Of a stretch of 64,000 nt of DNA, positions 2,445 through 58,794 are shown piece by piece. The stretch comes from Maritalea porphyrae (GTDB taxonomy: Bacteria > Pseudomonadota > Alphaproteobacteria > Rhizobiales > Devosiaceae): positions 124,001 to 188,000 of the forward strand of contig NZ_JAPWGX010000001.1 in assembly GCF_027213965.1 (NCBI RefSeq), written 5' to 3'. The position numbers and the translations under genes were made by a program. Numbering within the stretch: the stretch's first letter is position 1; every line of letters begins with the position of its first letter. The notes under the pieces were generated by a model. That model was not told the DNA's origin. It was given only the letters and a program-made list of their open reading frames with translations, and did not search any database.

Positions 2445-2888
2445 AATACTGACCTCCAAAAATCAGTTAGTTGTTTAGGACCGGTTGTTACCGGCTGTTT
2501 GCCGAAACGAGGCCACACTTTTTATTGGTGTGTTTGACGCCGCGTATGCGACCGACAAACGAATCCATGCATGGTTTCGCATTAGCCAAACTACTCATAC
2601 GCACTAAACATTCAAGCACAGATGTGTTGCCCTATGACGCTTGACCGAGCGCTGTTGCATTTTCAACACAGATTATCGTTCGGCCTTGAACTGCAGTGGA
2701 TAAGGCGGCATTTTTTACCTAGCAATTCGCAAGTGCATCGCCAGATCTTTATCCTTTTTAAACCATTAAGGTCACGTCAAATTTTATTTTTGCCGTTGGT
2801 GCATGGTTGACGGCTAGGGCACATTATTGCATCTAGCTCTTCCCAAACTGGCACCCGGCACACGAATACACACCTTAGGACACTAGAC
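2445..2888. other. Intergenic region between porin and Hsp70-like gene
   Basis: This 440-base divergent spacer must hold the leftward porin promoter and the rightward promoter of the Hsp70-like gene. I see the porin Shine-Dalgarno at about 2453-2457 and a TTGACG at about 2808 that could be a -35 box, but no convincing -10. No gene or RNA is recognised here. Confidence 0.4.
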
Positions 2889-4202
2889 ATGAACGAACTC
2901 GGCTATTCTATGGGCGTGGATTTTGGCACGACGAACACAGTAATTGCATTTGCTTCACCGACCGGAGAGATAAAAAGCGTGACGTTTGGCGCAGGGACAA
3001 ATTCGAACGACGTTTATCGTTCGGTACTTTGCTTTCAGCGCGACGATTCCGGCGCAAATTCAAAAACCGAGGTATCCGGCGGTATCGAAGCGATTGATGC
3101 CTATCTCACAAGTGCCAACGACGTACGGTTTATTCAATCCATTAAAAGCCATGCGGCAAGTCATCTGTTTGAAGAAACCCGCATTTTCGGCAACGCGTTT
3201 AAATTTGAAGACTTGATGTCGACATTTCTGCAATGTGCTGTGAGCGATGCCAAAGGTGCGTTGACGGATTTCCCTGCTGAGTTTGTTTCAGGTCGCCCAG
3301 TGTCCTTTGTCGGCAGCAAGCCGGACGACGCTTTGGCCATGAACCGTTATGAAGGGGCATATCAACTCGCCGGCTTTTCAAAACCTCGCCATGTTTATGA
3401 GCCAGTTGGCGCCGCATACAGCTATGCGCAAAGGTTAGAAAAAGACGCAACCGTTCTAGTTGGTGACTTTGGTGGTGGTACCAGCGATTTTTCCATCATC
3501 CGGTTTGAGAAGCGCGATGGGCGCACCATAGCGCATCCGGTTGGATTTTCAGGTCTGGGGATCGCAGGGGATCGATTTGACTACCGCATCATTGACGCGG
3601 TTATTTCTCCCAAGCTTGGCAAATATGGACAATATAAGTCGTTCGACAAACTACTTGAGATGCCCAAACACTATTATACCCAGTTCGCGAAGTGGCATCA
3701 GCTGGCGCTTTTAAAGACCCCGGGAACAATCCGTGAGCTACAAAACTTGGCCAAAAGCTCCACACAGCCTGAACAAGTGGAAGCGCTGATTGAGACCATA
3801 ATCGATGATCGTGGATTTGACGTTTATCGCGCTGTTTCTGCGGCCAAAGCAGCACTTTCCTCCAACCCAACCGCCAGTTTCAAATTGAAACTTGGCGACA
3901 TTGATGTTGGTGCTGAAGTGAAGGTCGACGATTTCAACAATTGGATTGCGCCGGATTTAGCCCAAATTGGCAGCACTGTTGATGGCCTATTGGCTGATAC
4001 TGCACTTTCTCCGGACGACATCGACAATATATTCCTAACTGGCGGCAGTTCCTTTATTCCGGCGGTCCAACGTATATTTTCTGATCGTTTTGGCGATCAA
4101 AAGCTGGCAGGTGGAAATCAATTCCAGTCCGTCGCTTTTGGCCTTGCATTGATTGGCCAAGAACCAGATCTGACGCCATGGCTGGCTGAAGGCACTTCAT
4201 AG
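2889..4202 (+). CDS. Hsp70-family ATPase, YegD-like
   Basis: The 437-residue protein has the actin/Hsp70 nucleotide-binding signatures: phosphate-1 VDFGTTNTV near residue 10, phosphate-2 VGDFGGGTSDFS near residue 195, and adenosine motif LTGGSSFIP near residue 385. It is much shorter than DnaK (about 640) and lacks the substrate-binding and lid domains, as in YegD-type proteins. Its role is therefore that of an atypical cytoplasmic chaperone-like ATPase with unknown client. AGGA lies upstream of the ATG. It stands upstream of the dehydrogenase-like gene with a 93-base gap and may be cotranscribed with it. Confidence 0.85.
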   Translation: MNELGYSMGVDFGTTNTVIAFASPTGEIKSVTFGAGTNSNDVYRSVLCFQRDDSGANSKTEVSGGIEAIDAYLTSANDVRFIQSIKSHAASHLFEETRIFGNAFKFEDLMSTFLQCAVSDAKGALTDFPAEFVSGRPVSFVGSKPDDALAMNRYEGAYQLAGFSKPRHVYEPVGAAYSYAQRLEKDATVLVGDFGGGTSDFSIIRFEKRDGRTIAHPVGFSGLGIAGDRFDYRIIDAVISPKLGKYGQYKSFDKLLEMPKHYYTQFAKWHQLALLKTPGTIRELQNLAKSSTQPEQVEALIETIIDDRGFDVYRAVSAAKAALSSNPTASFKLKLGDIDVGAEVKVDDFNNWIAPDLAQIGSTVDGLLADTALSPDDIDNIFLTGGSSFIPAVQRIFSDRFGDQKLAGGNQFQSVAFGLALIGQEPDLTPWLAEGTS

Positions 4203-5705: not shown

Positions 5706-6019
5706 TTGGCATCAACGACTAGATCAAACACCACAATCCCGTCCGCTCCGCCTGCGCACAGGGCGACGAGTTCTTTGCCCAATTGCTGGTGCGCGGGGTG
5801 ATTGGCGTAGTCTTGCAAGGCGGCTTCATTTGTAAAACTGGCGATAAAGCCGTGGCTAAATTTGTCAGACTTTCGTTCAAAGTCTTTGTTCGGGCCGGCT
5901 TTAATTGAAATCAGCCCTGTGATTTGGCCAACAAGAGCTTCAAAGCTTTGCACCGCTTCAAGTCTTTGAGTTTCAGATACGCCGGTGCGAAATGAACAGA
6001 AGACACAGTGTTTGATCAT
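5702..6019 (-). CDS. Dabb-family (stress-responsive A/B barrel) protein
   Basis: This 105-residue protein (starting MIKHCVFCSFRTG) fits the dimeric ferredoxin-like Dabb family. Features are the opening I-K-H-x-V-F strand, FSHGFIASFTNEAALQDYANHPAHQQ near residues 55-80, and a closing VVFDLVVD strand. The start at 6019 is chosen because AGGG lies nine bases before it and the longer form would run into bioC. It is the last gene of the biotin operon by position and strand. A biotin-related role is not implied by the family. Confidence 0.75.
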   Translation of the reverse strand: MIKHCVFCSFRTGVSETQRLEAVQSFEALVGQITGLISIKAGPNKDFERKSDKFSHGFIASFTNEAALQDYANHPAHQQLGKELVALCAGGADGIVVFDLVVDAN

Positions 6020-6030
6020 TGTTTCAAACC

Positions 6031-6813
6031 CTATTGCTGGCGCTGCGCGATCAACCAAACCGGCTGATAGGTTAGTGGCAGCTTGCCGCCATGGCCAAAC
6101 TGGTTTGCATAGCGTTCTTCAAAGGATTTGAAATTGGCTTTCGTCAGGATACCATCTGCATTGCCGTTTACACCTGTGTTGCGCAGGTGCCGCAAAAGCG
6201 GAGCCAACCCATCAAACTCAAGCTGGATTTGATCCATTTTGAGGTGTTTGACGTCCATAAAGTCCGGCAACATGACTTCAAGCTCGGCGCAATCTGTATA
6301 GCTGGGTGCTGCTGCTCGAGAGCCCAAGGCTTGTAATTCATGAAAATGATCAGAGCCAAAACCTGATAGGGCCATCCAACCGCCCGGTTTCAGTTTATTG
6401 GCTGTTTTTTCGACAAGGCTCGAAAGGTCCGGAATCCACTGTATTGCAGAACTTGATGCAACCAAATCCAATTGCTCGGGCAATTCAATTTCTTGAATTG
6501 GACCAGCAACAAATCTCGAATGGGGTGCAATAGACCCAACCTTGGTTTCGCACTCAGCGACCAAGTCATTGATAATCAGGTCGTTGATTTCAAACTGATC
6601 TGTCAGCTGTTTCGTGAGGTAGCCTGTACCACACCCAAATTCCAGTGCCCGATCAAACTGGTTCGCCTGACGAACGGACATGAGCTCATTGGCCAGATGC
6701 TGGGCGATTTGACGTTGTACGACCGCATTCTTCTCGTAGCTATCAAGGCCACGGCGAAAGCTTGTCGCCACACGTGTATCATCAAAAGTCTGCTTGGCGA
6801 TTTTATGCAACAT
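6031..6813 (-). CDS. bioC: Malonyl-ACP O-methyltransferase BioC
   Basis: BioC methylates the free carboxyl of malonyl-ACP so that fatty-acid synthesis can build the pimeloyl chain. The 260-residue protein has the SAM-binding motif LEFGCGTGYLTKQL near residue 60, IINDLV, and the post-motif LVASSSAIQWIPDL. It starts with the typical substrate-binding helix (RVATSFRRGLDSYEKNAVVQ). The start at 6813 overlaps the end of bioG by 11 bases and follows GAGG, which suggests translational coupling. Confidence 0.9.
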   Translation of the reverse strand: MLHKIAKQTFDDTRVATSFRRGLDSYEKNAVVQRQIAQHLANELMSVRQANQFDRALEFGCGTGYLTKQLTDQFEINDLIINDLVAECETKVGSIAPHSRFVAGPIQEIELPEQLDLVASSSAIQWIPDLSSLVEKTANKLKPGGWMALSGFGSDHFHELQALGSRAAAPSYTDCAELEVMLPDFMDVKHLKMDQIQLEFDGLAPLLRHLRNTGVNGNADGILTKANFKSFEERYANQFGHGGKLPLTYQPVWLIAQRQQ

Positions 6814-13064: not shown

Positions 13065-13154
13065 TGGCGGAGAGGAAGGGATTCGAACCCTCGAGACAGT
13101 TACCCGCCTACGCCCTTAGCAGGGGCGCGCCTTCGACCACTCGGCCACCTCTCC
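13065..13154 (-). tRNA. tRNA-Ser (GCT)
   Basis: The minus strand folds as a class II tRNA of 90 nucleotides. The acceptor arms GGAGAGG and CCTCTCC pair perfectly, the D arm includes GAGTGGTCGAAGG, the anticodon loop CTGCTAA gives GCT, a long variable arm follows, and the T loop is TTCGAAT. A CCA end is encoded at 13065-13067. Nucleotides 1-39 are inside the attachment repeat, so the 5' half of this functional gene and everything upstream of it come from the prophage side. Confidence 0.96.
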
Positions 13155-13155
13155 G
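13116..13155. repeat. Prophage attachment site attL (40-bp core)
   Basis: The 40 bases are identical to 58755-58794. They run from tRNA nucleotide 39, just past the anticodon, through nucleotide 1 and one base beyond. The next bases on both sides differ between the two copies, which defines the core exactly. Confidence 0.95.
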
Positions 13156-19113: not shown

Positions 19114-19446
19114 TTAGGCTTCGTCATCTTCAAAAGTTTCTGGCTCCCACGCCCCGTGATGAACCATTTGCATATGCAGAGGGTGAGCTTTGAAACGGGT
19201 TTCTTGTCCAATGGTTCCAATTGTATTCGTTTCGACTGAGCCGCTTCGGGTTAGGGCAAAGAGAGATGCGGTGACATCACTGCCAACATTTTCTTCGATC
19301 TCAGAATTTGCGGTCATGACATGCTCTAAGATTTCTCCATGTGTGCATTCGTGTTTTACTGTGGCGCAATAAAAAAGAACATCTGCGAGAACTCTCGCTT
19401 TCTTGGCAGTCGGACTTAAGTGCTGGAAACTATTCACTTTATTCAT
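19114..19446 (-). CDS. Hypothetical phage protein, cotranscribed with antirepressor
   Basis: The 110-residue protein is not recognised. It has a helical N-terminal half with His/Cys residues (CATVKHECTHGEI). Its ATGA start overlaps the stop of the KilA-N gene, so the two should be translated together; it may assist the antirepressor. Confidence 0.6.
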   Translation of the reverse strand: MNKVNSFQHLSPTAKKARVLADVLFYCATVKHECTHGEILEHVMTANSEIEENVGSDVTASLFALTRSGSVETNTIGTIGQETRFKAHPLHMQMVHHGAWEPETFEDDEA

Positions 19447-20261
19447 TTAGCCAACCCTTGTTCTGTTTGCTTGAAGCGGAGCTTCTTTTGGCCTTGGCGT
19501 TCGATTGCATAACGTTCCGCTGTCAGTTTCAACCCATTGCGCATGCACAAGGCTGCTTTATCTGGGTCAAATAACCGAACAGTGCCACTGCCAATATCCG
19601 CCCTTCCCTCATCTGCGATTGAACATCCCATCTCGTTTAGCCGGTTACCAAACCAAGTAGATGAGCCTCGGAGTTTGCCGGGTAGGTCGTAACGGTCCCA
19701 AATCTGCTTTGCGGTGCGGCCATGCCGTAAAAGAATGTTGTTTTCGGCAAGTTTGGCGCGAACCATCGGCTCAATCATGCGCTCTGACATGTCAAAGACC
19801 ATCAAAGGAAATGCTTGCTCCATTGCCGTGATTTTTTTGGCAAGCATTTTCAACATGCCATCATCACGCCGCAAGAGTTCCTTTATGTCATCTGGTAAGT
19901 CATGAACTGCAATCGACTTGCCTTCCATGCGCTCACGGATAACTTCGTTCCCCCACATATGGAAATCATGCGAGAGATATTTCATGTAAGCCAACGCAAT
20001 CTGCCAGTGCGCGAATGTTCCAAGATGAGAACCGCCGCGTTTAGATGTTACTAATTCAATATGGGATTTTCCCACATTGAAACTCACAGCCTCAACAAAA
20101 CCTTTTGCATTTGGAGTACGGAGCCACTGCGAAGGCGATTGATTTGGGGGGCTTCCGGCAGCACGCCACATATTGGTAAGCGACAATTTCTCATCACGAA
20201 CGCTGATCTCTACAGAATTGTAGACTAGCGGTTGTATTTCTGGTTTAATTAATTCGTTCAT
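19443..20261 (-). CDS. KilA-N domain antirepressor
   Basis: The 272-residue protein has an N-terminal KilA-N/AntB-like DNA-binding domain (LSLTNMWRAAGSPPNQSPSQW near residue 26, GGSHLGTFAHWQIALAYMKYLS near residue 75, WGNEVIRERM). A C-terminal domain includes HGRTAKQIWDRYDLPGKLRGSS near residue 179. In P22 the Ant protein inactivates lysis repressors. Here the gene follows an Arc-like gene and matches the P22 arc-ant order. AAGGA precedes the ATG. Confidence 0.82.
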   Translation of the reverse strand: MNELIKPEIQPLVYNSVEISVRDEKLSLTNMWRAAGSPPNQSPSQWLRTPNAKGFVEAVSFNVGKSHIELVTSKRGGSHLGTFAHWQIALAYMKYLSHDFHMWGNEVIRERMEGKSIAVHDLPDDIKELLRRDDGMLKMLAKKITAMEQAFPLMVFDMSERMIEPMVRAKLAENNILLRHGRTAKQIWDRYDLPGKLRGSSTWFGNRLNEMGCSIADEGRADIGSGTVRLFDPDKAALCMRNGLKLTAERYAIERQGQKKLRFKQTEQGLAK

Positions 20262-20316
20262 TCTGGGTTCCTTTAAAACCTGTTTGAATGTTCTGGCACT
20301 GCGCTAACAGTGCTGG

Positions 20317-20526
20317 TTAGTTCGCGGCGGAGGGTGTGTTGCTGTCTAGGCCCTCACCTTCCACCGCCCCAGAACCTGCCAAAGCACGTTCCAGCAATGT
20401 AACAATCTCCGCGTTCATACTCCTGCGATTGCGTTTAGCCTGCATCTTAATGTCGTCGCGCATTCCGATTGGGAACCGAACGATGTATTGGTCAGCCCCT
20501 CGTCCTGCTTCACCATAGTATGTCAT
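20317..20526 (-). CDS. Arc-like ribbon-helix-helix repressor
   Basis: The 69-residue protein has the Arc family core DQYIVRFPIGMRDDIKMQAK near residue 11, then NRRSMNAEIVTLLERAL. The strand DQYIVRF binds DNA as a dimer. ATG 20526 with AAGGA is preferred over TTG 20529. It heads the leftward arc-ant operon and would repress it by binding the operators at 20538-20612. Confidence 0.85.
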   Translation of the reverse strand: MTYYGEAGRGADQYIVRFPIGMRDDIKMQAKRNRRSMNAEIVTLLERALAGSGAVEGEGLDSNTPSAAN

Positions 20527-20559
20527 CAAATTTCCTTTATCTCCTATTGCGATAATTCA

Positions 20560-20588
20560 TGTATCGCCTACTGCGATGATTGTGTCAA
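20560..20588 (-). promoter_or_regulatory. Leftward promoter of the arc-antirepressor operon
   Basis: On the minus strand TTGACA (20583-20588) is a perfect -35, with GATACA (20560-20565) as -10 at 17-base spacing. The central operator starts in its -10. Confidence 0.65.
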
Positions 20589-20608
20589 CACAAGATATCG
20601 CCTAATGA
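20580..20608 (+). promoter_or_regulatory. Rightward promoter of the mnt-like operon
   Basis: TTGTGT (20580-20585) and TAATGA (20603-20608) are 17 bases apart and lead to the Mnt-like gene at 20629. The third operator covers the -10. Confidence 0.55.
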
Positions 20609-20628
20609 GATAAAAAAAGGGGCCAAAT

Positions 20629-20931
20629 ATGCCACAGGACAGCAAAAGTCGTAAACTTGATCAATATATTGTTCGTTTCCCAGACGGTATGCGTCAAAAG
20701 CTCAAAGACATTGCGGCTGAGAATGGCCGCAGCTTAAACGCCGAAATCATTCACCGTCTTGAGCAAAGCTTCAACGTAGCGACCTCCATTGAAGACATAG
20801 ATGCAGCAAACAAGCGGCTACAGGACATGATGGACAAGGCCGATAAGCGCATTGCACAGTTGCGTGAACAAAACACGCTGGCGCTACAGGTAGAAATGAA
20901 CCGCCGTAGCCCCGAAGATTCCGAAAAGTAA
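20629..20931 (+). CDS. Mnt/Arc-like ribbon-helix-helix repressor
   Basis: The 100-residue protein has the RHH core LDQYIVRFPDGMRQKLKDIA, NGRSLNAEIIHRLEQSF at residues 10-47. A coiled-coil tail (about residues 55-95) is suited to tetramer formation, as in Mnt. It is divergent from the Arc-like gene and first in a four-gene rightward operon. In P22, Mnt keeps the antirepressor off in the lysogen. Confidence 0.82.
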   Translation: MPQDSKSRKLDQYIVRFPDGMRQKLKDIAAENGRSLNAEIIHRLEQSFNVATSIEDIDAANKRLQDMMDKADKRIAQLREQNTLALQVEMNRRSPEDSEK

Positions 20932-20979
20932 GAAGCCTTTCAAATTGACAGGGTTCCTTGGCTGTTGCATTCTCAGCGC

Positions 20980-21303
20980 ATGTTTAAAAAAGCTTTATTG
21001 ATCTCACTATTATTCGTAGGCCCCGCCAATGCTTGGACCTACAACCTCAAACGTGACCTTGGCGTCGTTGGGTTTCAGCGCCATTGTCTATACTCAAATG
21101 ACGAAACATATGCGGTTAACTCGACTGATCTTTGCCCTATGTCGGTTGAAGACAGTGCGCCGGGGTTTGGCGGCGGGACCGGATATTACCAAGGCGAGTA
21201 TCAGGACGGGCTAAACAAGGTCTGTGTGTACGACGTTCTTGGCGAGCAACGGGCCATTAGAGTTTCAAGCATATCCCTTTGCCCTCAAACTCAGCGGTTC
21301 TAA
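20980..21303 (+). CDS. Small exported protein of the lysogenic operon
   Basis: The 107-residue protein has a signal peptide (MFKKALLISLLFVGPANA, cleavage before WTYN) and four cysteines in the mature part. ATG 20980 is chosen over an upstream TTG because it gives a normal signal peptide. It follows the Mnt-like gene. The function is unknown; an envelope role in the lysogen is inferred from position. Confidence 0.6.
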   Translation: MFKKALLISLLFVGPANAWTYNLKRDLGVVGFQRHCLYSNDETYAVNSTDLCPMSVEDSAPGFGGGTGYYQGEYQDGLNKVCVYDVLGEQRAIRVSSISLCPQTQRF

Positions 21304-21804
21304 ATGACTATTTTATCTCTACTGGTAAGAAGCCTCTTTAGTTTGGCTGTTGTTTGCACGTCGGCGGTCGCCTCGGACTTGATAAAGCCGGGCGTGTATT
21401 TTTGCAGAGACACAGCAGTTGGGGGAATTTCATTTGACGCCACCAGCGACATGTGGCGCTCAACTAAATTCAAGGCAGACGACGAATTTTTCTTGCGCGC
21501 AATACCAACAAGCGAGAAAATTACGCCAAAAGACACCAAAAGCGCCTACCAGAAATATGAAATATCGCTAAAGCCGACCGGGTTTGAAACCTACACCGAC
21601 TGCTCCAATGATGCTAGTATTTTTAGTGACCTTAATGTGTACGGGCCCGTTGTTTGGTGTAGGGCTTTCCTTTCGAGATACAACTTCAACTTTGAGAACG
21701 GGCGTTTTTCATCCGCCTATCAAATTGGCTATGTTAGTGGTGATGACAATAACAAGAACACCCCCGCCATTTCAATTGGAACCTGCGATTGGATAACCAA
21801 ATGA
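21304..21804 (+). CDS. Exported protein of the lysogenic operon
   Basis: The 166-residue protein has a signal peptide ending AVAS and a mature domain starting DLIKPGVYFCRDTAVGG, with further cysteines at TDCSND, VVWCRAF and IGTCDW. Paired disulfides in the periplasm are likely. It begins right after the stop of the preceding gene. The family is not recognised. Confidence 0.6.
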   Translation: MTILSLLVRSLFSLAVVCTSAVASDLIKPGVYFCRDTAVGGISFDATSDMWRSTKFKADDEFFLRAIPTSEKITPKDTKSAYQKYEISLKPTGFETYTDCSNDASIFSDLNVYGPVVWCRAFLSRYNFNFENGRFSSAYQIGYVSGDDNNKNTPAISIGTCDWITK

Positions 21805-22001
21805 CTGAAGAACCCAAAATCATTGAAGGCACAGCCCGCCGAAAAGACGCACCGCCTAAAAGGGAATGGAACGTTGCCGATCCTATAGAGCGGATTGTCA
21901 TTTTGGTTATTTCGGCTTTTGCGCTAACAATCGCTGCTAGATACGGCTCTGATGTTGGGGCAATCCTTTTCCCGTTTCTACCGGACACCCCAGTATTCTA
22001 G
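21801..22001 (+). CDS. Small membrane protein of the lysogenic operon
   Basis: The 66-residue protein has a charged N-terminal 30 residues and a membrane helix (IVILVISAFALTIAARYG). Its ATGA start overlaps the stop of the previous gene. Its TAG stop shares CTAG at 21998-22001 with the stop of the convergent ejection-protein gene. It is a superinfection-exclusion candidate by analogy of position with P22 sieA only. Confidence 0.6.
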   Translation: MTEEPKIIEGTARRKDAPPKREWNVADPIERIVILVISAFALTIAARYGSDVGAILFPFLPDTPVF

Positions 22002-24193
22002 TTTAGCTGAGGGCGGCTTGCGACAATTGGCAAGGCTTTTTCAAGGCCAACGCCATAAGCCTCAAGCGCTTTCATCCATCCTCGGGTTGCCATTGCGTTG
22101 AATTGAGCTTTGGCAAGCAATTTCGGATCGTTGGAAAGAAGAATGCGCCCAACTTCTTTGAGAACGCGCTCGTCAATCTTGCCGCCTAATGTAGCAGCCC
22201 CTTTCCTGCCAAGCGCTAGCATTGCCCCCATGCCAAGGCTTGTTTGCCAGTCCTGTCCTGTTACTGCGCCTAAACCTGCGCCAGTCGCACCAACGCCACC
22301 AGCCATGCCTAGTTCATGAAGGAATTGAGCTGTTTTAGAATTTCCCATGGCCCCGCGCATTTTGTCCATAATGTCTTCGACACGAACAAACGCCTCAAGT
22401 TCACGGCTGGCATTTTTGCCTAAAACCATTTCGTTTAACTCACGAGCGGCGGGGTTACCAAACATTTGCTGCACAATATTGCGGTTATCGGATGCGGCCC
22501 GCATAGTGTCGATCATCTCACTAGAATAGCCAGCCTGAAACGCTTTCTTTTCAGCGTCTTTCATGCCTTCAAATGCGGCTTTTGCTTCTGGTACAAGTTT
22601 GCGGTTGCGGGCGAATTTTTTACCCGCGTCTAACGCGTCGTCAGCGCCAAAGAATGCGGCAGCTCCGATGCGCGCGTCTTTAAATTCAGTCACCGCATTA
22701 TCAAGAGCGTTGTTTAAGGATTGTCGAACACCGTTAATTTCATTAAATGCTGCGCTGCCCGGATGCCCCGCCGCCTCCGCTTGCTTCCTCAAGTCGCGCT
22801 GCACTTGATCCCAAAACGCTAAATTCGGTTTGGCAACCGAACCATCTGGCAATTTACGCAATGAAATAGAACCATCATTATTGAACACAAACGGGTTTTT
22901 GACTGGTTTAATACCTTCTGCAACGGACCGGTTCGCCCCGCTTGTTTCTGCTGATTTAACCGCACTACGCAAAGCAGGAGAACGCATTAGCTGCGAAAAG
23001 TTATCATCCCACATGGCTTGTGCTTTTGGAGACTGATAAGCCTTTAAATACGCTGGTTTATTGGCCGCTCTAGCCGCCTCTTTCAATTGGCTTTGGAATT
23101 TTAGGTCATCAACATTCCCGCCGACAAGACGGGTAAGAGTTTGGATTGCCCGTCCTGCTTGACCTTTATACCTATCGCTAACGACCTTCTCCATTTGGCC
23201 GCGAAATTCGGGTGAAGTATTGGCCGCTGATCTAGCAAGGGCGCGGGTTGTTTCGCCGCCCCGGTCAACGTTCATAATGTTTTGTCCGTTAAGACGTGCT
23301 GTCGCTTCATCTGCTTGGTTTAGTACGCTACTTGGCATTGATGCCTGATCTATGCTGTTTGCCAATACAACACGTCTTGCGCCCTCATAAGCTGGGTCAA
23401 ACATACTTTTTGCGAAATGTCCGGCGTTTTTGACCTTATCCGCTCCAAACTTTACAGCTTTAGAAGCAATAGGCATTGCAGCCGATAAGCCGCCGCCCAA
23501 TGCGACACTACCCGCCGCATCTTGCAAAGAGCCACCACGCGCCAATGTGTCAGCACCGGAAAGGGTCGCGTTTGTGCCAATACCCGCCGCATAACGTGTT
23601 GCCGCATTCTTGCCCTCAAGGCCCAACGCCTGTTTACCCATTTGGGTTTGCGCCAACTTGCCCATAGATGCGATCGCACCTGTCATATTCCCGGTAAAAG
23701 CCTCAACTGGGGCGCGGCTTTCCCTAATGTCACGGTTTTGTGCTAATACGTCACGGGTCATTGCGGGGTCATAACCTTGCAAGCGCCCCACGGTTTCAGC
23801 CATAACGGCATCTGCGCCGCGCTGCACCAACGGCCCAACAACGGGAACGCCCTCGAGTGTGTTTTCGGCAAATGTGCCAATACGTTGACCTAAATCCATC
23901 TTGCCGTATTGCTCTTCGAGCGCTTTTTCTTCAGCCGATTTCTGTTCACGGCCCAAACGTTCTTGTTCTTGCCAGAATTGTTCGCCTTCATTATGACCTT
24001 GTGCGCCTTTTGGTACTGGCAGGCCAAAGTCCATATCATTTGTGTTGGCCGGGGCTTGTTGAGCTGCCTTGAATTGGCGAACAGCTTCAATGGAAGTCCC
24101 TTCGCCTGAAATATAGGCGTCTATGTCAGTTTCAGGCGCACCTTGGCTAACCATTTTTGCCACGTTACGCTTAACTTTTGCGAGATCAGCCAT
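21998..24193 (-). CDS. Ejection (internal virion) protein, large
   Basis: The 731-residue protein is last of three consecutive genes in the position of P22 genes 7, 20 and 16. It has a helical, Gln/Glu-rich N-terminus and Gly/Ala-rich hydrophobic stretches (TLEGVPVVGPLVQRGADAVM, MAGGVGATGAGLGAVTG) that could insert into membranes. Such proteins leave the virion to help carry DNA through the envelope. The assignment rests on order and composition, not on a catalytic motif. Confidence 0.65.
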   Translation of the reverse strand: MADLAKVKRNVAKMVSQGAPETDIDAYISGEGTSIEAVRQFKAAQQAPANTNDMDFGLPVPKGAQGHNEGEQFWQEQERLGREQKSAEEKALEEQYGKMDLGQRIGTFAENTLEGVPVVGPLVQRGADAVMAETVGRLQGYDPAMTRDVLAQNRDIRESRAPVEAFTGNMTGAIASMGKLAQTQMGKQALGLEGKNAATRYAAGIGTNATLSGADTLARGGSLQDAAGSVALGGGLSAAMPIASKAVKFGADKVKNAGHFAKSMFDPAYEGARRVVLANSIDQASMPSSVLNQADEATARLNGQNIMNVDRGGETTRALARSAANTSPEFRGQMEKVVSDRYKGQAGRAIQTLTRLVGGNVDDLKFQSQLKEAARAANKPAYLKAYQSPKAQAMWDDNFSQLMRSPALRSAVKSAETSGANRSVAEGIKPVKNPFVFNNDGSISLRKLPDGSVAKPNLAFWDQVQRDLRKQAEAAGHPGSAAFNEINGVRQSLNNALDNAVTEFKDARIGAAAFFGADDALDAGKKFARNRKLVPEAKAAFEGMKDAEKKAFQAGYSSEMIDTMRAASDNRNIVQQMFGNPAARELNEMVLGKNASRELEAFVRVEDIMDKMRGAMGNSKTAQFLHELGMAGGVGATGAGLGAVTGQDWQTSLGMGAMLALGRKGAATLGGKIDERVLKEVGRILLSNDPKLLAKAQFNAMATRGWMKALEAYGVGLEKALPIVASRPQLN

Positions 24194-49760: not shown

Positions 49761-49789
49761 TTGCATTTTTTTTATGCATCGGATACGGA
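49761..49789 (+). promoter_or_regulatory. Candidate CI maintenance promoter (PRM-like)
   Basis: TTGCAT (49761-49766) and TACGGA (49784-49789) have 17-base spacing and lead to the CI start after a very short leader. The -10 is weak, as expected for a promoter needing activation. ATGCAT and TATGCG half-sites surround it. Confidence 0.45.
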
Positions 49790-49802
49790 TATTGTGCGCC
49801 CC

Positions 49803-50444
49803 ATGAAAACAAGTGACGTAATTCGAGCGATTCTCAAGGTAAGCGGTTGGAACCAGTCAAGGCTGGCAGATCACCTTGGTGTGACACAGCCAACCGTATC
49901 AAGATGGATGAAAGGCTCCGAACCAAACGGCGCTCAATTCCAAGCCATTCAAGAGCTTTATCGTGAAGTTGCGTCAACACCCTCTTCGAGCCAGCAAGTA
50001 TCAACAGACAATGGCATCCCAAACCTTGATATTCATGCTGGGTTAGGCAATGGCGGCATGGGCCATATTGAAGTTGATCCAGACACAATGCGCCCCCTGC
50101 CCCAATACACCGATGGGGATTGGAACATGCCCCCGGCGTTCATGTCGCGGTTTGGCAATATAAAAGGCGTTTTCGCTTTTGTAGTAACTGGCGATTCAAT
50201 GACCCCGACCATTAAAGGCGGGTCAGCCGTGTTTGTGGACACCAAGCAAAACTACCCCTCGCCCCCAGGCTTATTTGTAATCGATACGGGCGACGGTAGG
50301 CTGGTAAAGCGCGTTGAGCTTATTCCGCGCTCCGAAGATATCCGCATAATTTCAGACAACAAAGAATACAGCACATACGAATTCAATCGTGAGGACGTGC
50401 ATATATTTGGGCGCGTGATCGCTGTATTTAGTTGGAATGAATAA
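49803..50444 (+). CDS. CI-like repressor with S24 peptidase domain
   Basis: The 213-residue protein has an N-terminal helix-turn-helix (QSRLADHLGVTQPTVSRWMK near residue 17) and a LexA/CI-type C-terminal domain. The nucleophile serine is in VVTGDSMTPT and the lysine in RLVKRVELIP. Self-cleavage after RecA activation should induce the prophage. ATG 49803 has no Shine-Dalgarno, as for lambda cI. Confidence 0.9.
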   Translation: MKTSDVIRAILKVSGWNQSRLADHLGVTQPTVSRWMKGSEPNGAQFQAIQELYREVASTPSSSQQVSTDNGIPNLDIHAGLGNGGMGHIEVDPDTMRPLPQYTDGDWNMPPAFMSRFGNIKGVFAFVVTGDSMTPTIKGGSAVFVDTKQNYPSPPGLFVIDTGDGRLVKRVELIPRSEDIRIISDNKEYSTYEFNREDVHIFGRVIAVFSWNE

Positions 50445-57594: not shown

Positions 57595-57922
57595 AACCTA
57601 CACCAAAGAGCAAGCGGCGGCGATGTTCAACATGCGGCCCAAAACATTCGCTGAACATGCGCGCAAACATGGGCTTTACGCAAAGGCCGGGCGCAAAGTA
57701 ATCTACTATCGATCACACTTGGAAAGGTTGCAGGAAAAATGGGACGCCTCAAAGTCTACAGACGCGGCCAAACTTGGTGGGTTGGCGGTACAATCAATGG
57801 ACAAAGAATTAGGGAAAGCACTGGCACGTCTATCCAAGCCATTGCAGAACAATACGCCACAAAGCGCGAACTTGACGCTCATAAGGTCAAAATCTATGGC
57901 GAAGAAAGCGTCATCACAATAG
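57587..57922 (+). CDS. Excisionase-like DNA-binding protein
   Basis: The first 50 of 111 residues form a winged-helix of excisionase/AlpA type (TKEQAAAMFNMRPKTFAEHA, then GRKVIYYRSHLERLQEKW). The gene runs 184 bases into the integrase gene in another frame, so its second half may not be a folded domain. It should direct excision together with integrase. Confidence 0.68.
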   Translation: MIETYTKEQAAAMFNMRPKTFAEHARKHGLYAKAGRKVIYYRSHLERLQEKWDASKSTDAAKLGGLAVQSMDKELGKALARLSKPLQNNTPQSANLTLIRSKSMAKKASSQ

Positions 57923-58737
57923 CGGCTGCAATTAACCTTTATCTTGACGCCAAAAAATCAGACCGTTTTTTGTTACCCATTCTCACACACTGGGGCCACA
58001 AGAAAATAAAAGACATAAAGCCGGGGCATGTTCACGACCTTTGCCGGGCAATTCACCCCAACGCGGGACCAGCGACACATAACCGCCAAGTTATAACGCC
58101 CGTTCAAGCGGTCATCAATCACGCGGCCAAGCGCGGCCTATGCAATCCAATCAAAATTGAACGGTTTAAGGTTGAGCGCAAAATACCAAGCGTAGGGACG
58201 CAAGATTGGCTTGAAGCCTTCATTGCCCATTCAAGCCCTCATTTGGGCGCACTGGCCCTATTTATGGCCTATACAGGCGCAAGAATAAGCGAAGCTGTGC
58301 GTTTGGAGTGGAAAGATGTAGATTTTGACAACCAAATAGCTGTTCTGAAGCAAACCAAAACAGACCCGCGCATTTGCACATTACCCCAACCCTTGATTAT
58401 CAAGCTGGCAAATTTGGAGCGGGTGAGCGATAGGGTTTTCCGCTATGCATCACGCAATTCTGTACAAACAGCATGGAATAGTGCGGAAATAAGGGCTGGG
58501 ATTGACCACATTGCGCCACATGATGCGGGGCGCAGGTTCTTTGCGACAGCAATGATGCAAGCCGGGGTTGACCCTGTTACAGTTGCCAAAGCTGGTGGTT
58601 GGAATAGCAAGCGAATGGTGCTTGAAGTATACGCGCAACCAAGCGACACAAAAGAGGCCGTTCAAAAGACGTTTGGCACAAAACTTACACAGCCAATCAT
58701 AGCAGTGCAAAATAGCAAAGCAAAATCAGACACTTAA
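57739..58737 (+). CDS. int: Tyrosine recombinase (phage integrase)
   Basis: The 332-residue protein starts MGRLKVYRRGQTWWVGG (arm-binding type). The catalytic domain has TGARISEAVRLEW with the first Arg, HDAGRRFFATAM with His and second Arg, and the tyrosine in VLEVYAQPSD. It lies 17 bases from attR and would recombine at the tRNA-Ser anticodon loop. AGGA precedes the ATG closely. Confidence 0.92.
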   Translation: MGRLKVYRRGQTWWVGGTINGQRIRESTGTSIQAIAEQYATKRELDAHKVKIYGEESVITIAAAINLYLDAKKSDRFLLPILTHWGHKKIKDIKPGHVHDLCRAIHPNAGPATHNRQVITPVQAVINHAAKRGLCNPIKIERFKVERKIPSVGTQDWLEAFIAHSSPHLGALALFMAYTGARISEAVRLEWKDVDFDNQIAVLKQTKTDPRICTLPQPLIIKLANLERVSDRVFRYASRNSVQTAWNSAEIRAGIDHIAPHDAGRRFFATAMMQAGVDPVTVAKAGGWNSKRMVLEVYAQPSDTKEAVQKTFGTKLTQPIIAVQNSKAKSDT

Positions 58738-58754: not shown

Positions 58755-58793
58755 TTAGCAGGGGCGCGCCTTCGACCACTCGGCCACCTCTCC
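58755..58793 (-). pseudogene. Orphan 5' half of tRNA-Ser
   Basis: It corresponds to tRNA-Ser nucleotides 1-39 on the minus strand, ending just past the anticodon, and has no 3' half. The native tRNA promoter lies directly upstream and now reads through it into the integrase gene on the antisense strand. Confidence 0.9.
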
Positions 58794-58794
58794 G
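58755..58794. repeat. Prophage attachment site attR (40-bp core)
   Basis: It is identical to 13116-13155. It marks the right end of the prophage, next to the integrase gene. Confidence 0.95.

Follow-up and report, generated by a model that had tools for sequence, protein, structure and literature searches.

The locus described here lies in a prophage of the alphaproteobacterium Maritalea porphyrae, within a stretch of 64,000 nucleotides (contig NZ_JAPWGX010000001.1, positions 124,001 to 188,000; hereafter the window, in whose numbering coordinates without a locus name are given). It consists of a putative antirepressor gene and two divergent genes for ribbon-helix-helix (RHH) proteins, which flank three predicted operators. 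The antirepressor candidate is a KilA-N domain protein of 272 amino acids, encoded at 19443..20261 on the minus strand, that matches Pfam family PF04383 (E 2.1e-10; 40.8 bits, above the cut-off of 23.8) and the transcriptional regulator family phrog_129 (E 9e-27). According to an AlphaFold2 (AF2) model (mean pLDDT 66), it is composed of a KilA-N domain at residues 20-112, a helical linker and a C-terminal helix-helix-hairpin-helix region. A viral fold search with this model gave four matches at E 0.001, and both named ones are KilA proteins. Directly upstream, on the same strand, lies the gene of an Arc-like RHH repressor (20317..20526, starting at the ATG at 20526; the open reading frame (ORF) is listed from a TTG at 20529, and the protein counts 70 amino acids as listed). 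Divergent from it is the gene of a Mnt-like RHH repressor of 100 amino acids (20629..20931, plus strand). Both proteins match the Pfam Arc family PF03869 (E 4.7e-13 and 1.3e-15, respectively; 49.2 and 57.4 bits, cut-off 20.4). The Mnt-like protein has a predicted long C-terminal helix (residues 54-92; AF2 model, mean pLDDT 75) and its nearest solved chain is that of AmrZ (3qoq, E 3.4e-9). Over 50 residues, the two RHH proteins share 48% identity, and their DNA-reading strand, DQYIVRFP, is the same in both, a complete match. All three genes had been named in the original prediction, which was made from the letters of the window, and all three are present.

Between the two RHH genes there are three copies of ATCKCN5GMGAT, in repeats located at 20538, 20562 and 20596. 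The sequence ATCKCNNNNNGMGAT occurs three times in the 64 kb, each time within the island, against an expectation of 0.13, and none of 100 shuffles reaches three occurrences. Likewise, none of 300 shuffles of the window's intergenic region yielded a palindrome triple of equal quality. The predicted operators are located at 20539..20553 beside the arc-like gene, at 20563..20577 in the middle and at 20597..20611 beside the mnt-like gene. They are interspersed with a putative minus-strand promoter of the arc-like and antirepressor genes, Pant, that would comprise a -35 element TTGACA (20583..20588) and, at a spacing of 17 bp, a weakly matching -10 element GATACA (20560..20565). The operator beside the arc-like gene lies downstream of this -10 element, the middle one lies in the spacer and overlaps the -10 element, and the one beside the mnt-like gene lies upstream of the -35 element. 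Three operators of 17 bp had been predicted; their number and their confinement to the island within the window were confirmed, but the core that is counted here is 15 bp long. Genome-wide, the operator motif is found at 23 places, three of which are those of the island, and a control pattern at 3 places. One of the 20 single matches outside the island, at G000:C87:26205-26219, is an isolated full palindrome of the same type as the operators in the window.

To place the island among its relatives, loci with a related KilA-N protein were drawn from viral contigs, genomes and five phage records, four plasmid matches being left out, and the 169 loci were reduced to 98 distinct KilA-N proteins by grouping on the last 60 residues. 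An RHH pair, with one of its genes divergent from and the other codirectional with the KilA-N gene, is present directly upstream in 24 of these 98, the window included; L060 and L075, where the upstream RHH gene is on the same strand only, are excluded from this number. The class includes the Paracoccus phage Pkon1, which is temperate according to its description (PMC6536676), and the Acetobacter phage phiAX1, so that the anticipated conservation of these genes as a group was borne out. The other 74 KilA-N proteins are without an RHH pair, although some of their contigs stop near the gene. The C-terminal part of the KilA-N protein differs strongly among the loci. The protein itself is rare: within the limits used and with the window's genome counted each time, the genomes that contain it number 1 in 6 for the genus, 2 in 136 for the family, 2 in 397 for the order and 2 in 385 for the class. 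In L015 the KilA-N gene contains an in-frame TGA (1501-2136) and in L017 it is split over two overlapping ORFs (5890-6769); both are probably decaying copies.

A second scan, with an alignment of Mnt-like proteins as the query and limited to the best 80 of at least 450 loci, yielded 58 divergent RHH pairs, or 53 after the removal of duplicates (L187, L197, L191, L205, L232). The Mnt-like member is the longer one in 52 of the 53. The ORF 3′ of the Arc-like gene could be retrieved for 49 pairs and belongs, according to Pfam, to KilAC (12), Rha (12), KilA-N (5), BRO-N (5) or AntA (2), where one protein may count twice. As several unrelated antirepressor families are present in the same slot, the RHH pair would, judged by position, be what controls them. 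One contig, L201, carries two divergent RHH pairs (1339-2200 and 2487-3237) within 2 kb.

The array of three operators recurs as well. For each intergenic region, the half-site and spacing giving the best three palindromes were determined and compared with dinucleotide shuffles. In 14 of the 24 KilA-N loci (the window, L004, L017, L031-L035, L042, L050, L054, L074, L092 and L157), three locus-specific palindromes are found that 0 of 300 shuffles equal; L016 stands at 1/300. When half-sites are counted irrespective of orientation, L015, L046, L064, L076, L077 and L094 come to 5/300 or less. For loci whose Mnt strand is HFRLR the three-palindrome test has little power, as their half-sites are partly direct repeats: four of them reach 20/300 (L015), 6/300 (L046), 61/300 (L064) and 85/300 (L077) by palindromes, and all four are detected by the half-site count. 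In the second set, 34 of 53 pairs give 0/150 and 42 give at most 7/150. The intergenic region of P22 is not significant (146/300 for palindromes, 110/300 for half-sites). In an earlier run over 19 of the 24 loci, L075 and P22, eleven loci (the window, L004, L017, L031-L035, L042, L050 and L054) beat all of the 46-56 control windows of the same length and all 100 shuffles; L005 and L046 stood at 0/100 shuffles, yet were matched by 5/54 and 8/54 control windows of their own locus. The choice of the region matters, as illustrated by L074, which changed from 5/100 in the earlier region to 0/300 in a longer one, and the final regions of L046, L074 and L076 end at a codon other than ATG, GTG or TTG or at a point chosen by eye. 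The TTGAC of the putative -35 element recurs in relatives too: it is present in 19 of the 24 intergenic regions, that of the window included (mean fraction in shuffles 0.13), and in 12 of the 14 loci of the 0/300 class. In eight of these 12 an operator centre lies 17-20 bases after the start of TTGAC, i.e., in the -35/-10 spacer; in three (L042, L050, L074) it lies 10 bases after it, and L032 has neither arrangement.

The two repressors of one locus tend to share the residues that read DNA. Over 23 loci (L077 was left out as a near copy of L064), the Mnt-like and Arc-like proteins are identical at strand residue 2 in 14 cases, where re-pairing predicts 5.7, and at residue 4 in 12, where it predicts 2.5 (0/20000 permutations for each). 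Agreement in helix B is at chance (0.356 vs 0.350). In the 53 other pairs, residues 2 and 4 rank first of 40 columns by z, with 20 identities vs 11.6 (p 0.001) and 12 vs 6.1 (p 0.007), respectively. They also lead all columns, apart from a nearly invariant Arg column, in the pooled set of 77 and in a thinned set of 48. Shared descent would lift all columns, which it does slightly; the far larger excess at the reading residues speaks for selection towards a common site. Outside the strand, groups of Arc-like proteins have C-terminal tails in common while their remaining parts have diverged, among them PAAGSEAAAR in L016 (7906-7936) and L017 (5906-5936) and GSNPDAS in L092 (3115-3145) and L093 (3450-3480). 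The tail in the window is different.

Residues and operators were tabulated for 48 of the 77 loci, namely 14 and 34 with operators at 0 shuffles; loci without such a result were left out, and the operators had been chosen without use of the protein sequences. Operator similarity follows residues 2 and 4 of the Mnt-like strand with a Mantel r of 0.53, or 0.47 when the similarity of the Mnt helices is subtracted, and the Arc-like residues with a Mantel r of 0.14. Residue 2 of the Mnt-like protein is best associated with the fifth base counted from the dyad centre: the z is 10.8, and K occurs with G in 21 of 22 loci. This tie persists at z 4.3 when the set is thinned to 29 loci with Mnt identities below 70%. 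Residue 4 is best associated with base 4 (z 6.5). Other bases show weaker ties. When residue 2 of the Arc-like protein is considered alone, it also goes with base 5: over 38 loci the z is 5.9, and K is accompanied by G in 10/10. Taken as a pair, the two Mnt-like residues correspond to bases 5-4-3 as follows: KI with GGC (11/11), KM with GTC (8/8), KV with GGC (2/2), RI with GCC (3/3), QI with CGC or CTC (6/7), QN with AGC (2/2), QH with ACC (2/2) and RS with GTC (2/2). The other 11 loci are single or inconsistent, e.g., QM (AGC twice, ATC, ATG) and QV (GGC, ATG). In the crystal structure of AmrZ bound to DNA, GGC half-sites are read by Lys18, Val20 and Arg22 (PMC3325190). In the AmrZ site, GGC-AAAAC-GCC, the GGC is located at bases 5-4-3, which are the letters and the register of the KV and KI phage loci.

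It is likely that this locus is a secondary immunity island for the control of an antirepressor, in which two RHH repressors compete for shared operators. In a lysogen, the Mnt-like protein would occupy the three operators and keep the arc-ant promoter off, so that the KilA-N antirepressor is silent. The mnt-like gene would at the same time head a small operon of apparently exported or membrane-bound proteins, which may act on incoming phages. When the Mnt-like protein is absent or diluted, upon infection or derepression of the prophage, Pant would fire and the Arc-like and KilA-N proteins would be made. Sharing the DNA-reading strand of the Mnt-like protein, the Arc-like protein would bind the same operators, thereby limiting antirepressor synthesis and lowering expression of the mnt-like gene, as Cro does against CI. 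The KilA-N protein is then proposed to block the CI-type S24/helix-turn-helix (HTH) repressor encoded 29 kb away.

Several observations weigh against this interpretation or narrow it. A consensus promoter scan of the window did not report Pant, whose -10 element is weak, and the AF2 model of the KilA-N protein, a poor one, has no PDB fold match at E 0.001. L003, which at 53% has the highest identity of the KilA-N relatives, is without an RHH pair. Three of the 24 loci, L005, L093 and the HFRLR locus L037, are significant by neither operator statistic, failing to reach 5/300, and 11 of the 53 second-set pairs fall short of the 5% level. In the thinned set of 29 loci, the association of Mnt-like residue 4 shifts, with z values of 4.2 for base 6, 3.0 for base 5 and 2.6 for base 4. 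Within loci, helix A (0.277 vs 0.216) and all non-contact columns (0.338 vs 0.299) agree above chance, so shared descent contributes to the resemblance of the two repressors. Moreover, residue 4 differs between them in 11 of 23 loci, and the partial correlation of the Arc-like residues with the operators drops to 0.01 once the Mnt-like residues are accounted for. This mismatch and the null partial correlation imply that recognition of the sites by Arc may be poor in some members of the class. The null correlation also fits an explanation in which the operators are read by the Mnt-like protein only, while the Arc-like protein binds weakly or elsewhere, which would amount to control by one repressor with a cotranscribed second regulator. 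The operators do track the Mnt-like residues, and in L017 and L033 Mnt strand and operator are in agreement, with Arc strands that differ. Nevertheless, control by the Mnt-like protein only is unlikely, given that in both sets the within-locus excess of identity peaks at the two reading residues, that Arc-like residue 2 by itself tracks base 5, and that the strands in the window are identical.

The function of the KilA-N protein leaves room for other readings. KilA-N is a DNA-binding type of domain. The protein could thus be a regulator of, for example, late genes or replication rather than an antirepressor of CI, in a cassette of another purpose. Consistent with this, CI as the target of KilA-N is a proposal, several loci adjoin tail or ejection genes, and the C-terminal part of the protein varies so strongly by locus. 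The slot 3′ of other RHH pairs, however, often holds families that are annotated as antirepressors, and P22 has Ant in the equivalent slot, which makes such a regulator possible but rather doubtful. RHH antitoxins are commonly encoded beside toxins. A toxin-antitoxin unit, with KilA-N as the toxin and an RHH protein as the antitoxin, might also be considered because KilA/BRO antirepressors have been listed beside toxin-antitoxin pairs (PMC2701414). Two divergent RHH genes and three operators are unlike the usual two-gene operon, and the same slot is occupied by several unrelated antirepressor families; a toxin-antitoxin unit is very improbable.

Beyond the window, the balance tips only slightly towards a general form of the proposal. 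In this form, a second bistable switch would be widespread among temperate phages: two RHH paralogues with matched reading heads would compete for three operators that they share, as an RHH analogue of lambda OR, and two residues of the Mnt-like protein would largely disclose the immunity type of the switch. If the form with three operators and matched repressors is usual elsewhere, secondary immunity, of which P22 immI is the studied case, would be common and would follow a lambda-like logic realised in another protein fold. Heteroimmune groups could be predicted from sequence by means of the correspondence between residues and operators, which also makes the specificity of this RHH family directly amenable to tests with natural protein-operator pairs.

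The prophage that carries the island measures 45.7 kb and has a portal and a coat of the P22 type, phrog_156 and phrog_283, respectively; tblastn with the portal gives matches to annotated P22-like portals. It is bounded by an exact repeat of 40 bp, the att repeat, with the left copy at 13116..13155, overlapping a tRNA-Ser gene (13065-13154), and the right copy at 58755..58794; the integrase gene (57739-58737) lies inside these bounds. The gene of a CI-like repressor with HTH_3 and Peptidase_S24 domains was found at 49761-50444 on the plus strand, about 29 kb from the island, as the original prediction had it, and is a possible target of the antirepressor. Because this CI-type gene is present, the further claim that the prophage has two immunity systems is plausible, as far as the sequence goes. 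Regulation of CI through the same operators was considered and rejected, the operator motif being confined to the island within the window. The island lies among the late genes. Its neighbour at 21998..24193 (minus strand) is possibly ejection-protein-like; it matches phrog_5880, a PHROG of unknown function (E 1e-59). The link to ejection runs through L005, where the neighbouring protein, one of 20 chosen for a profile scan of flanking proteins in relatives, matches phrog_26400, annotated 'DNA ejection protein', at E 4.1e-50 and also phrog_5880 at E 2.5e-11. A place directly after the ejection genes had been claimed; the setting among late genes was retained, and the connection to ejection is indirect. 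On the other side, a 110-amino-acid ORF (19114..19446, minus strand) overlaps the stop codon of the KilA-N gene by 4 nt and has no Pfam match at E 1 and no PHROG match at 0.1. In three relatives, a protein with a signal that we take to be of the twin-arginine type is encoded 3′ of the KilA-N gene (L004 6190-6615, L005 5769-6200, L016 9130-9555).

The island had been delimited as 19443-22001, which contains the immunity genes but also, at 20965-22001 on the plus strand, three ORFs downstream of the Mnt-like gene. The first (20965..21303, likely from the ATG at 20980) lies 3′ of the mnt-like gene, encodes a small protein with a signal-like N-terminus and matches phrog_4641, a PHROG of unknown function (E 3.4e-7). 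The second (21304..21804), also encoding a small protein with a signal-like N-terminus, would form a transcription unit with it, and the third (21789..22001, likely from the ATG at 21801) encodes a 70-amino-acid protein with one hydrophobic segment. The three occupy the position of sieA in P22 and appear exported or membrane-bound; none has a PADLOC match at 0.01. Several relatives likewise have small hydrophobic or signal-bearing proteins on the mnt side. A conserved function of the mnt-side genes was not retained, since the contents vary by locus and can only be described as variable cargo that is hydrophobic or signal-bearing in several loci. Behind the Mnt-like gene, a Rap1a-like protein is encoded in L005 (4026-4373), a RelE-like toxin in L033 (3826-4185), a HicA toxin in L035 (3585-3791) and a TIR protein in L076 (3121-3978). 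Judged from such gene content, the mnt side may accommodate defence or addiction genes as cargo.

Compared with the immI region of P22 (P22 biology as described in PMC8022706 and PMC11016777; record L091), the island has the same divergent mnt and arc-ant units with Mnt longer than Arc, and TTGAC upstream of arc-ant is found in both. P22 immI is situated after the ejection (injection) genes, with sieA on the mnt side. The details differ. P22 Ant consists of P22_AR_N and P22_AR_C (PF10547, PF10548), whereas the antirepressor candidate in the window has KilA-N only, up to E 1; P22 Mnt contains Repressor_Mnt (PF11423, E 1.6e-20), a domain not found in the window's Mnt-like protein; and Oarc and Omnt of P22 are two unlike operators, in contrast to three like palindromes. 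In P22 sar is annotated and its antisense fold has a z of -4.9, against -0.4 for the antisense of the arc-ant junction in the window, a score that cannot exclude an RNA. The description as P22 immI-like thus holds for the layout and the place among late genes and not for these particulars. A sar-like antisense RNA is not claimed for the window at this z of -0.4, despite hairpins in other loci. These hairpins span the arc stop codon, at the position of P22 sar; the one in L050 (4890-4930) has a 10-bp stem (0/200 shuffles), and antisense z values at the arc-ant junction are -3.3 in L016, -2.9 in L017 and -2.3 in L033, down to -4.1 among the hairpin loci.

A similar variable slot in the late operon has already been described for sixteen P22-like phages and prophages as the 'ant moron', which often contains an ant homologue and, in P22, also mnt, arc and sieA (PMC2629481). 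The island differs from it in the KilA-N type of its antirepressor candidate, in the class of the host and in its three-operator array. The general three-operator pattern has apparently not been described: no account of a three-operator RHH pair or of a residue-operator table was found among the matches listed for titles and abstract beginnings in the open-licence literature, which is weak evidence of absence. In Pkon1 (p51-p53) and phiAX1 (540-570) the order is that of the island, Arc-like (-), Arc-like (+) and KilA-N (+), with one ORF in between in phiAX1; the operators of both phages, TACCAN3TGGTA in phiAX1, are unlike those of the window. Neither 'KilA-N' nor 'antirepressor' occurs in the main text of the Pkon1 paper (PMC6536676).

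In AmrZ of Pseudomonas aeruginosa, a Lys/Val/Arg strand is placed on GGC at the offsets seen in phage loci with K-V or K-I strands, but unlike the phage repressors AmrZ is a bacterial protein that regulates genes for motility and alginate. Neither a partner RHH gene nor an antirepressor is known to accompany it, although no search aimed at them was made. Given its similarity to the phage Mnt-like proteins, which extends to sequence, strand and half-site, AmrZ may descend from a prophage repressor. Lambda OR, finally, offers a parallel in organization. Cro acts there against CI. Like the island, lambda OR combines two divergent repressors, three like operators and promoters that point apart; it does so with helix-turn-helix proteins that govern primary immunity, whereas the RHH proteins of the island would control an antirepressor.

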